Shown here one piece after another: positions 44,988 through 47,614 of a stretch of 56,356 nt of DNA. A program made the translations under genes and the position numbers. This stretch comes from Methanomicrobiales archaeon (lineage in GTDB: Archaea; Halobacteriota; Methanomicrobia; Methanomicrobiales; Methanospirillaceae), in the NCBI GenBank assembly GCA_012729535.1, contig JAAYCY010000016.1, forward strand, positions 1 to 56,356, read 5' to 3'. The number at the start of each line of letters is the position of its first letter. Position 1 is the first letter of the stretch. The notes under the pieces were generated by a model. That model was not told the DNA's origin, did no database searches, and worked only from the letters and a program-made list of their open reading frames with translations.

Positions 44988-45037
44988 GTATAACCGCGTT
45001 CCCCTGGTACCGGTAGTGCATGCCTAAACATAAATCT

Positions 45038-45063
45038 GGCATGGTTTTTTTGAAAAAAATGCC
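45038..45063. terminator. Hairpin between mutY and the transposase-like gene
   Basis: GGCA and TGCC arms enclose a T7/A7 stem with a small bulge. It lies between the ends of two convergent genes and could end transcription from both sides. Confidence 0.45.
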
Positions 45064-45093: not shown

Positions 45094-46623
45094 TTAAAAA
45101 TCAACATCCCATTTGAGTGCATCAAGGATTTCTTTTTGTCGTGATGCAAGCCCGGTTGCTATAACCCTGTCATTTCCAAGGCCAATAAGTCGTATCTTCA
45201 TTAATTCAAGTAGAATTTTTTCAGGTGTATATATAGAGAGAAGGCCTGACCTGACATATTGCTCATTGACCCATCGTTCAACAACATGGGCGATGAATGC
45301 AATAAGAAATGCTCCGTTCTCCATGATGTCGCTGTCAACCGAGAGGGGGAAGATTTGGAAATTTTTTAGAAAGGTGGTGAGAAATTGTTCTGCTTCTGCA
45401 CGTTCCTCAATCCATTCCAGGCAGGTGTCCCACTGGTATTCCGGATCTCCGGTGACTATCACGGAGATACCACTGTTTTTCAGGTATTTACCCAGCGTTT
45501 TTCTTTTCACATCTATAACCATGCGATTCTCTTCTACCTTCCACTGAAAAAAGGGAGCATACATACCTGCGACATCAGCAAGTGCCTCTGCCGGATTGAC
45601 CCATCGATATACCGGTTTATCATTGAGATTTTCTAAAATATTCTCTATATCTTCGGCATAACGTCCCCTGATCTCTTCTTCCTGCCTGGGGCTGTATATA
45701 ATATAAGCTTTCAGGTGCACCGTCTCAAGAGTGATGTTCGCGGGGATTACAAACAATGTTTCACCACGGAATATTTTCAGGTTTTTCGGGTGCATGAGCT
45801 CAGAACGTAATTGTTTTATCTCATTTTTAATCAGCTCATGTTCAGGGTCAAGTGGGAAGATCATGGGTATTTCACCATATATCGCTCCATACAAATTCAT
45901 GGAGGATTCAAATTTTTTCCCGGATACAATCACACTTTTTTTCCCTGAAAAAAGGCTCATTCCTGCGCTTATTGCTTTAACAAGGTCTGATGTTATCAGG
46001 TATTGGGCTGATGAGAGGTACCCGACCGGAAAGTTGTCTGTGTTGTCATAAAAGAGAGCAAGCGATTCAGTTCCATGGTGATTGACTCCCTTATTCCATG
46101 ATGGTTGGTGAGATGTCGAAATTTCAATATTTAATGCCCGCAAATTTCCGCTATCAGGGATTTGGGAAAGTGATCTGCAGATTGCAAGGTGAATAGATCC
46201 TTCTCCGAGTTTTTTCAAAAGACGGGTAATGCTCTGAGTATTGATCTTAAGGCCGGAATACACTCGTGGAAGAACCGTGCTCTCATACCAGGAAGATGGC
46301 GAATGCAAAGCATCAGGGTGATGAATTCCAGCAAACATGAGTGCCAGGAATAATCGCACTTCATGGTCGGTCAGGTGTTCGCTAAGAATTTCCTGGATTC
46401 GGAGGTTTTTCACCGCCTGAAGGTAGGGAATAAATTCTCCATATGCATAAGCACGTTCAGGAGTTTTTGCCTTTTCCCTGACCCTTACTGGTTGTCCGTC
46501 AACATTTTTTCCAAGATATCTGGATTTCTGCCTGGTTCTTCGTGATTCTTTATCGTAATAATAGGTGATCTCATACAGGTATTCATGCCCGTTTATCTTT
46601 TTAATCCGGGTAGTAGTTTTCAC
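45094..46623 (-). CDS. IS1634-like transposase, probably catalytically inactive
   Basis: A 509-residue protein with the layout of IS1634-group DDE transposases: an N-terminal segment (RQKSRYLGKN, KTPERAYAYGE), the RNase H-like core, and a C-terminal ERWVNEQYVRSGL region matching the R-x-x-I-E-x-x-F end of the family. At the first catalytic position the expected D-x-T/S is replaced by LNIEISTSH (about 164-172). At the second, the expected V-A-D-x-G is VIVSGKKF (231-238). Two catalytic aspartates therefore seem lost though the frame is intact. Start is GTG 46623, with ordinary spacing but no Shine-Dalgarno. No convincing terminal repeats or target duplication are found. It may be a fossil or a domesticated transposase. 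Confidence 0.7.
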   Translation of the reverse strand: MKTTTRIKKINGHEYLYEITYYYDKESRRTRQKSRYLGKNVDGQPVRVREKAKTPERAYAYGEFIPYLQAVKNLRIQEILSEHLTDHEVRLFLALMFAGIHHPDALHSPSSWYESTVLPRVYSGLKINTQSITRLLKKLGEGSIHLAICRSLSQIPDSGNLRALNIEISTSHQPSWNKGVNHHGTESLALFYDNTDNFPVGYLSSAQYLITSDLVKAISAGMSLFSGKKSVIVSGKKFESSMNLYGAIYGEIPMIFPLDPEHELIKNEIKQLRSELMHPKNLKIFRGETLFVIPANITLETVHLKAYIIYSPRQEEEIRGRYAEDIENILENLNDKPVYRWVNPAEALADVAGMYAPFFQWKVEENRMVIDVKRKTLGKYLKNSGISVIVTGDPEYQWDTCLEWIEERAEAEQFLTTFLKNFQIFPLSVDSDIMENGAFLIAFIAHVVERWVNEQYVRSGLLSIYTPEKILLELMKIRLIGLGNDRVIATGLASRQKEILDALKWDVDF

Positions 46624-46858
46624 ATATGCTAATAGGCATGCATTATAATTTAAAATTTTGGTTTTATTGGATGTTAAAAAATCTATTTGCCGATAAAATC
46701 GGTTGCCTAATTTAAATAAATGAAATAAAAATCAAATTTACTTTTCCAAAGGTCAATGTGGCTAAATTTAATATATCTCGACGCTAACCTATAATTACCT
46801 CTCTGCATTAGAACCTGCATGAAGACACCCCCCATCCGAATAACACCTGACGCATACA
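46624..46858. other. AT-rich region upstream of the transposase-like gene
   Basis: No gene is seen. It contains a small hairpin CCGAT/ATCGG (46690-46702) and, on the plus strand, a TATA-like TTTAATATA at 46767-46775 that could start a transcript near 46798 into the structured region that follows. Confidence 0.4.
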
Positions 46859-47006
46859 TGTGAAATGCCTCATTTCACACCCCCCATCAAAATGTGTGTA
46901 TCATATTCATGAGGTTCTTGTAGGAGGAGAATGTTCGATGAAGACCCCATTGGTCTCTGTGATCCCGATATCACTGGTTGACTGCCCCAAGGGTGCAGAG
47001 ACCAAT
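46859..47006 (+). ncRNA. Candidate structured RNA element
   Basis: Two strong structures lie here. GTGAAATG/CATTTCAC (8 bp, three-base loop) is at 46859-46877. ATTGGTCTCTG at 46949-46959 pairs with CAGAGACCAAT at 46996-47006 (11 bp, perfect); inside this stem are a GTGAT/ATCAC hairpin (46959-46974) and a weaker GC hairpin (about 46984-46996), suggesting a three-way junction. CACCCCCCATC occurs twice (near 46826 and 46881). A strong AGGAGGAGA (46922-46930) precedes ATG codons at 46931 and 46937 that open 16- and 51-codon frames. A plus-strand TATA lies upstream. Strand and function are inferred; it could also be the 3' end of the cbi transcript read from the other strand. Confidence 0.4.
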
Positions 47007-47017
47007 CCCCTTTTCCA

Positions 47018-47614
47018 CTATTCTTTCAGATTTACTACATTTGTAACGAAAAGAATGTACATGTTCCCTTTTGAAACCGGAGGGTTTTGAGAAGTTCCTT
47101 CATCTATTCGTTCATCGGGATAGCCAAGGTTTTCACAGATAATAATTCGTGCGGGAGCAGAGAGTTCTGAAAGCCGATGGCACAGGGTTATTATCGGAAA
47201 CTGCGGGTCAGCGATGATGCAGGTTTTTCTTCCCTTTTGATGCATTTCACAACAATCGTTGATCGCTTTATCGTGGTCTCTTCCATGTGCTGTGATAATA
47301 AACAGATTTGTTAATGATATCCCTGTTTTAGCAGCTCCAAGCTGGATTGATGATATACCTGGTGTAATATCTCCCCTGAGGTATCCAAGTCCGGATATCA
47401 TGGGATCACCGGTTGAGAGAACAATCGCATCCTCCGGGAGTTGGTGCAGTAATGAATAGTCTTCAATGATCCTGACCTGAGCATTTCCGGATATGTGGGA
47501 TTTTGCATGATTTATTGCCCGCTCCGATCCCACGATAAGACGGGCGGATCGTATTACCGTTATTGCTTCTTCAGTGAGCATTCCCGGTCCACAACCAACT
47601 CCGACGATTTTCAT
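47018..47614 (-). CDS. cbiE: Cobalt-precorrin-7 (C5)-methyltransferase
   Basis: A 198-residue SAM-dependent methyltransferase of the corrin tetrapyrrole fold. KIVGVGCGPGMLTEEAITVI and IVLSTGDPMISGLGYL are the family motifs. It methylates C5 late in the ring pathway together with CbiT, which is encoded separately upstream. It is the last gene of the cbi operon; its ATG overlaps the cbiD stop. Confidence 0.9.
   Translation of the reverse strand: MKIVGVGCGPGMLTEEAITVIRSARLIVGSERAINHAKSHISGNAQVRIIEDYSLLHQLPEDAIVLSTGDPMISGLGYLRGDITPGISSIQLGAAKTGISLTNLFIITAHGRDHDKAINDCCEMHQKGRKTCIIADPQFPIITLCHRLSELSAPARIIICENLGYPDERIDEGTSQNPPVSKGNMYILFVTNVVNLKE

Follow-up and report, generated by a model that had tools for sequence, protein, structure and literature searches.

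Organization of the locus

The window, i.e., the whole analysed stretch of 56,356 nucleotides (contig JAAYCY010000016.1 of the Methanomicrobiales assembly GCA_012729535.1), carries between a transposase-derived gene and the end of a cbi operon a short interval in which the following features can be distinguished (the coordinates of the RNA and its helices being predicted):

45094..46623, minus strand: divergent gene for an IS1634-derived protein with a degenerate catalytic site, associated with the RNA but outside it
46760..46776, plus strand: archaeal promoter-like BRE/TATA element, TTTAATATAT at 46767-46776, conserved across genera
46797..47016, plus strand: proposed RNA gene, about 215-220 nt, conserved in 14 genomes, plus-strand z = -4.3
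46798..46823, plus strand: 5' arm of P1, pairing with 46906-46927 in the predicted fold
46828..46858, plus strand: core A, CCCCCCATCCGAATAACACCTGACGCATACA, near-invariant across two genera
46859..46879, plus strand: P2 hairpin, 9 bp with a 3-nt loop, z = -4.15
46880..46892, plus strand: core B, second CCCCCCATC copy, 11/13 positions invariant in Methanospirillum
46906..46927, plus strand: 3' arm of P1 in the predicted fold, including AGGAGG
46933..46948, plus strand: linker GTTCGATGAAGACCCC, beginning of a tiny reading frame, 16/16 positions invariant in Methanospirillum
46949..47006, plus strand: P3, 11-bp 3' stem with the conserved loop ACTGGTTGACTGCC, showing covariation, all cells paired
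47018..47614, minus strand: convergent tetrapyrrole methylase gene (PF00590), the last of the cbi operon and presumably CbiE-like, a name given by position

An initial annotation, made from the letters alone, had pointed to most of the elements in this interval, and they are indeed there: the TATA-like TTTAATATAT, the repeated CACCCCCCATC (46826-46836 and 46878-46888), the 8-bp hairpin GTGAAATG/CATTTCAC (46860-46878, extended to 9 bp by the pair 46859/46879), the AGGAGGAGA motif (46922-46930) and the perfect 11-bp stem ATTGGTCTCTG/CAGAGACCAAT (46949-46959/46996-47006). Its AGGAGG, taken as a Shine-Dalgarno site, is also present, but in the predicted fold it belongs to the 3' arm of P1, the largest helix (46798-46823/46906-46927), which had been overlooked. 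In the fold predicted for the plus strand of 46797-47013, P1 encloses the C-rich core, P2 and the second CCCCCCATC, with P3 lying downstream, so that both copies of CCCCCATC sit in the near-invariant core closed by P1 and both of these identical C-rich motifs fall in predicted unpaired segments. The RNA would start at 46797, about 26 bp past the centre of the TATA box, and end at about 47016, as predicted from the 3' stem and a pyrimidine run.

Distribution and sequence conservation

A DNA search located the RNA in 11 of the 12 genomes of Methanospirillum (the source genome included) and its core in a second genus, with two genomes; a third genus emerged with a covariance model (G006, E = 1.3e-6). 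With G006 included, the refined model matches 14/108 genomes of the family and 14/232 of the class, with one match in each: the 11 Methanospirillum genomes, two of the Ca. Methanofilum lineage (G001 and G018) and G006. The two models, R1 and R2, cover 46797-46941 of the RNA. The sole Methanospirillum genome without a match (G075) is 67% complete. Methanofilum is presented as the sister lineage of Methanospirillum in an excerpt of the source (PMC10684969). When named genomes were scanned with a pattern, eight records were obtained, corresponding to five Methanospirillum, one Ca. Methanofilum arcanum, one Euryarchaeota MAG and one Methanomicrobiales MAG. In G024 (C1, around 3518600, L053), some 9.5 kb separate the RNA from the closer one of two rRNA operons.

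The conservation is sharply delimited. Core A is invariant at 30/31 positions in the 11 Methanospirillum sequences, and at 29/31 once the two Methanofilum-lineage sequences are added, while core B is also found in both of these (L013 and L014) and in G006 (L032). The promoter region (46760-46777) keeps 11/18 positions invariant among the same 11 Methanospirillum genomes, in contrast to the spacer preceding the TATA box (0/39) and the 41 bases 3' of the RNA (0/41), and a TATA-like stretch occupies the equivalent place in L013, L014 and L032. The promoter-like element is thus conserved along with the RNA, as looked for in archaeal intergenic sRNAs, and would function as its promoter. The window RNA is 97% identical to that of G012, which belongs to another species. 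Between these two, the synonymous sites of the neighbouring gene have reached saturation (pS = 0.745), and therefore neutral sites have been randomised. Judged from these alignments, strong selection acts on the element, at the RNA or the DNA level.

Folding and covariation

The density of pairing proposed initially is above chance, both for the small hairpin (z = -4.15, 200 dinucleotide shuffles) and for the 220-nt plus strand, which folds at -67.0 kcal/mol, whereas its shuffles average -48.3 (z = -4.3, with 0/100 shuffles as low). The minus strand of the window RNA folds near chance (z = -1.1), and over six sequences tested the plus strand beats all 100 shuffles in 6/6 and the minus strand in 2/6.

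The comparative evidence is carried mainly by P3, whose pairing in relatives is fully kept: 100% of its cells are paired, 6/11 pairs have changed on both sides and 0/500 shuffles reach the covariation score, whereas controls in which the stem is slid are only 33-47% paired. This count was made on 9 of the 12 P3-bearing sequences, since those of G024, G058 and G067 duplicate kept rows, and the Methanofilum-lineage pair was excluded, the loop being missing from its 3' hairpin. Of the six pairs changed on both sides, five are due to the distant G006 alone and the sixth to the G039 group; as far as the sequences tell, G006 has replaced the stem (TTACCTCCTTT/AAAGGAGGTAA) while retaining the loop (GGYTGACTGCC, unchanged). 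P3 is, then, the helix that supplies the compensatory changes looked for in archaeal intergenic sRNAs.

The other helices are more uneven in this respect. P2 is paired in 99% of the cells across 14 sequences, its pairs being almost invariant, and lower P1 is paired nearly throughout and scarcely varies. P1 differs in sequence in the G039 group (L010-L012) and in Methanofilum, yet its pairing is maintained: shuffles pair as well as its variable part in 2/1000 cases for the window and 4/1000 for G039 (L010), the pairing being weak in G001 (L013, 39/1000) and at chance in G006 (L032, 545/1000). Upper P1 is hence supported by comparison in Methanospirillum and unsupported in G006. The three-way junction that the initial annotation had placed within the 11-bp stem does not survive the comparison, since neither of its two smaller inner hairpins is conserved (the first is missing in G039 and G006) and the minimum-energy folds of the window lack the junction; what the relatives have in common there is a possible mini-hairpin, GG(U/C)-UGACU-GCC, alone. 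A three-hairpin fold competes with P3 in several Methanospirillum sequences.

Genomic context and independence from the cbi operon

In Methanospirillum and G006 the RNA is flanked by the convergent end of the cbi operon and by the divergent transposase-like gene. That convergent order, together with the distance of only 11 bases between the end of P3 and the stop codon that closes the cbi operon, could suggest that the 3' stem merely terminates transcription of this operon or belongs to its 3' UTR. This is nevertheless highly improbable: the minus strand of the window folds near chance, the TATA box, the core and P1 would be left unexplained and, above all, the Methanofilum-lineage loci contradict it, because there the RNA, with a 3' hairpin of its own, is located in another neighbourhood, after a TPR-like gene (named by eye). 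Even less credit can be given to a cis-regulatory leader (a riboswitch) acting on a downstream gene, an idea that draws on the succession of a promoter and a compact fold next to vitamin B12 genes; the next gene on the plus side of the window is convergent, in L046 the next gene on the same strand begins about 1 kb past the RNA, and no Rfam family matches at its gathering score. Since the Methanofilum-lineage RNA lies among other genes and retains a TATA-like box, it is an independent gene, and neither a terminator nor a leader of the cbi genes.

Taken together, the conservation in three genera, the covariation of the 3' stem, the conserved TATA box and the altered gene context in Methanofilum bear out the first of the two options of the initial annotation, a functional RNA, and a structured noncoding RNA gene on the plus strand is very probably what the locus holds. 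The evidence from sequence supports its conservation at the RNA level, the pairing of P3, the promoter-like element and the independence from the neighbours, and from there the transcription and the exact ends of the RNA, as well as its base-pairing in trans, are inferred.

The IS1634-derived neighbour

The protein encoded at 45094-46623 has no match in Pfam and matches the IS1634 profile NF033559 only partially (50.7 bits, below the cut-off of 100), while its G006 ortholog reaches 117.5 bits. Its predicted fold (pLDDT 80.9) is similar to that of the Tn5 transposase (Z of 16.5 to 3ecp, rmsd 5.5, 337 residues aligned). With the positions of the DDE motif taken from aligned intact relatives (YDITSLSS, MDRGFFS), the second catalytic Asp is a Gly in 10/10 Methanospirillum orthologs and the first is retained in 3/10 (the G039 group), so that none of them has an intact DDE site; the G006 protein retains both residues. 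Purifying selection is strong, as indicated by a dN/dS of about 0.03 between L043 and L044, the two that have diverged least, and the N-terminus is very conserved (VKTTTRVKKINGHEYLYEITYYYDKE..RTRQKSRYLGK). G024 and G046 have partial matches (157 residues at 35%), but no further full-length copy with more than 30% identity was found in these genomes. In contrast to IS1634-family transposases, the gene has no mobile copies and has lost the second catalytic Asp; rather than an active element it is a host gene that has been conserved, and it looks like a domesticated transposase.

A 13-nt inverted repeat (92% complementary, 45014-45026 and 46633-46645) flanks this gene, and direct copies of TGCCTAAT are located at 45060 and 46704; they are possibly remnants of transposon ends or operators, or the product of chance.

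The proximity of a transposase-derived gene is also what could recommend the second option of the initial annotation, a small mobile structured repeat (MITE or REP-like). Its likelihood is practically nil: further copies were searched for in the source genome and the RNA was found to be single, the model matches once per genome in all 14 genomes that have the RNA, the core pattern has no match in viral contigs, and the neighbouring gene itself has no second full-length copy.

A different relation between both genes can be conceived, namely that the RNA is the partner of an exapted, catalytically degenerate IS1634-derived protein, forming a transposase-derived RNA-protein regulator. The spacer between the gene and the RNA start (46624-46796 in the window) spans 172-174 nt across 10 Methanospirillum genomes, with 177 nt in G006, a length that is kept though most of its sequence is unconserved (spacings and orthologs count 10 genomes and not 11 because the G067 assembly holds only a fragment of the gene), and each RNA-bearing genus, Methanofilum included, also has an ortholog of at least about 35% identity. 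In G001, the RNA and the ortholog are on different contigs, the latter beside a nucleoside-diphosphate-kinase-like gene (named by eye), and a possible ortholog in G009 (47 residues, 66% identity, at a contig end) has no RNA beside it. So far, simple vertical inheritance in one lineage accounts for the co-occurrence equally well, and the partnership is considered unlikely.

Candidate modes of action

How would such an RNA act? About an even chance is given to a stand-alone noncoding RNA, predicted on the plus strand, putatively transcribed from its own TATA-box promoter and acting in trans by base-pairing, which is the reading favoured here. P1 would join the 5' end of the RNA to its middle, displaying the near-invariant C-rich core with its two copies of CCCCCAUC, and the stable P3, whose loop is conserved, would probably delimit the 3' end and shield it. 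The exposed C-rich segments would most likely pair with G-rich stretches in particular mRNAs, altering their translation or decay, by analogy with the archaeal sRNA154 and sRNA41. The presence of the same C-rich motif in two segments predicted to be unpaired suggests trans base-pairing of the kind described for these two sRNAs, and the partner mRNAs would be expected to carry GAUGGGGG-type sites.

Searches for such partners do not prove this mechanism. Compared with the translation starts of 46 genes of the window, the C-rich segments showed no preference beyond that of shuffled segments, the anti-Shine-Dalgarno control being positive. Sites of the KGRTGGGGGG type outnumber those of a reversed-pattern control in G024 (33 vs 13), G039 (28 vs 7), G000 (15 vs 8) and G006 (18 vs 11). 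The RNA gene contributes to these counts, with two matches per genome in the three Methanospirillum and one in G006. In G024 and G039 the sites occur at 2.5 to 4 times the frequency of the reversed pattern and are also strand-skewed (24 to 9 and 19 to 9). Most of the 57 sites inspected in these two genomes (those of the RNA excluded) lie within reading frames and, due to this, no target is claimed.

A separate candidate, a guide RNA pairing with rRNA, was rejected, since the complementarity of the unpaired segments to 16S and 23S rRNA does not exceed that of shuffles (in the eight segment-rRNA pairs, between 3 and 27 of the 30 shuffled queries attained the best energy).

The main rival keeps the same RNA gene and reads its core as a protein-binding platform (scaffold, sponge or RNP) instead of an antisense seed. 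It is the less probable of the two, though still a substantial contender: the almost complete invariance of core A across genera is what a protein-bound RNA would also show, and the two identical copies of CCCCCATC and the lack of both a general preference for translation starts and rRNA pairing beyond shuffles fit it too, but the seeds of multi-target sRNAs may be just as conserved.

There is, in addition, the question of the tiny frame, which might make the locus a dual-function RNA also encoding a 14-residue peptide, starting at the ATG in 46938-46940 behind AGGAGG (MKTPLVSVIPDITG in relatives). The ATG and the linker are invariant in 11/11 Methanospirillum genomes and a frame of 14 codons closes at a conserved TGA in 8/11. 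However, the window and G071 have a shifted frame, G063 has a shortened one, that of G001 stops after two codons, the ATG is missing in G006, and the substitutions track the pairing of P3. In the window, the shift is due to one missing base in the P3 loop (46962-46968), which reads GATCCC where most relatives have GATACCC. A coding function is, in view of this, decidedly unlikely.

Few archaeal small RNAs have, to our knowledge, known structures or targets. Being present as a single copy across genera, with a clear promoter-like element and three helices, this RNA may well be a core RNA of the regulatory or RNP kind. Methanospirillum serves as a model of syntrophic methanogens, and the RNA occurs in complete genomes of cultured-type members of the genus, which makes its expression, ends and partners directly testable.

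Comparison with known archaeal RNAs

No family of Rfam 15 matches at gathering score in the whole window, and searches of open-licence papers yielded no description of this RNA. The closest comparison is with sRNA154 of Methanosarcina, likewise an archaeal intergenic RNA, whose members would be expected to be induced under nitrogen limitation. The model consensus of sRNA154 (RF02906) has the 14-mer GCCTCATTTCACAC in common with the window RNA, but this stretch forms half of a hairpin here and is mostly single-stranded in the sRNA154 model. The covariance score of 15.1 bits (E of 2.4) is far from the gathering score of 88, and 0/100 genomes of this order exceed the cut-off; the identity with sRNA154 was rejected, the 15-bit match being likely due to chance. 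The likeness to sRNA41 of Methanosarcina mazei concerns the described mode of action. In the excerpted text of the source, which describes the masking of ribosome binding sites by archaeal sRNAs, sRNA154 is said to act through its loops on mRNAs and such masking is proposed for sRNA41 (PMC5867862).
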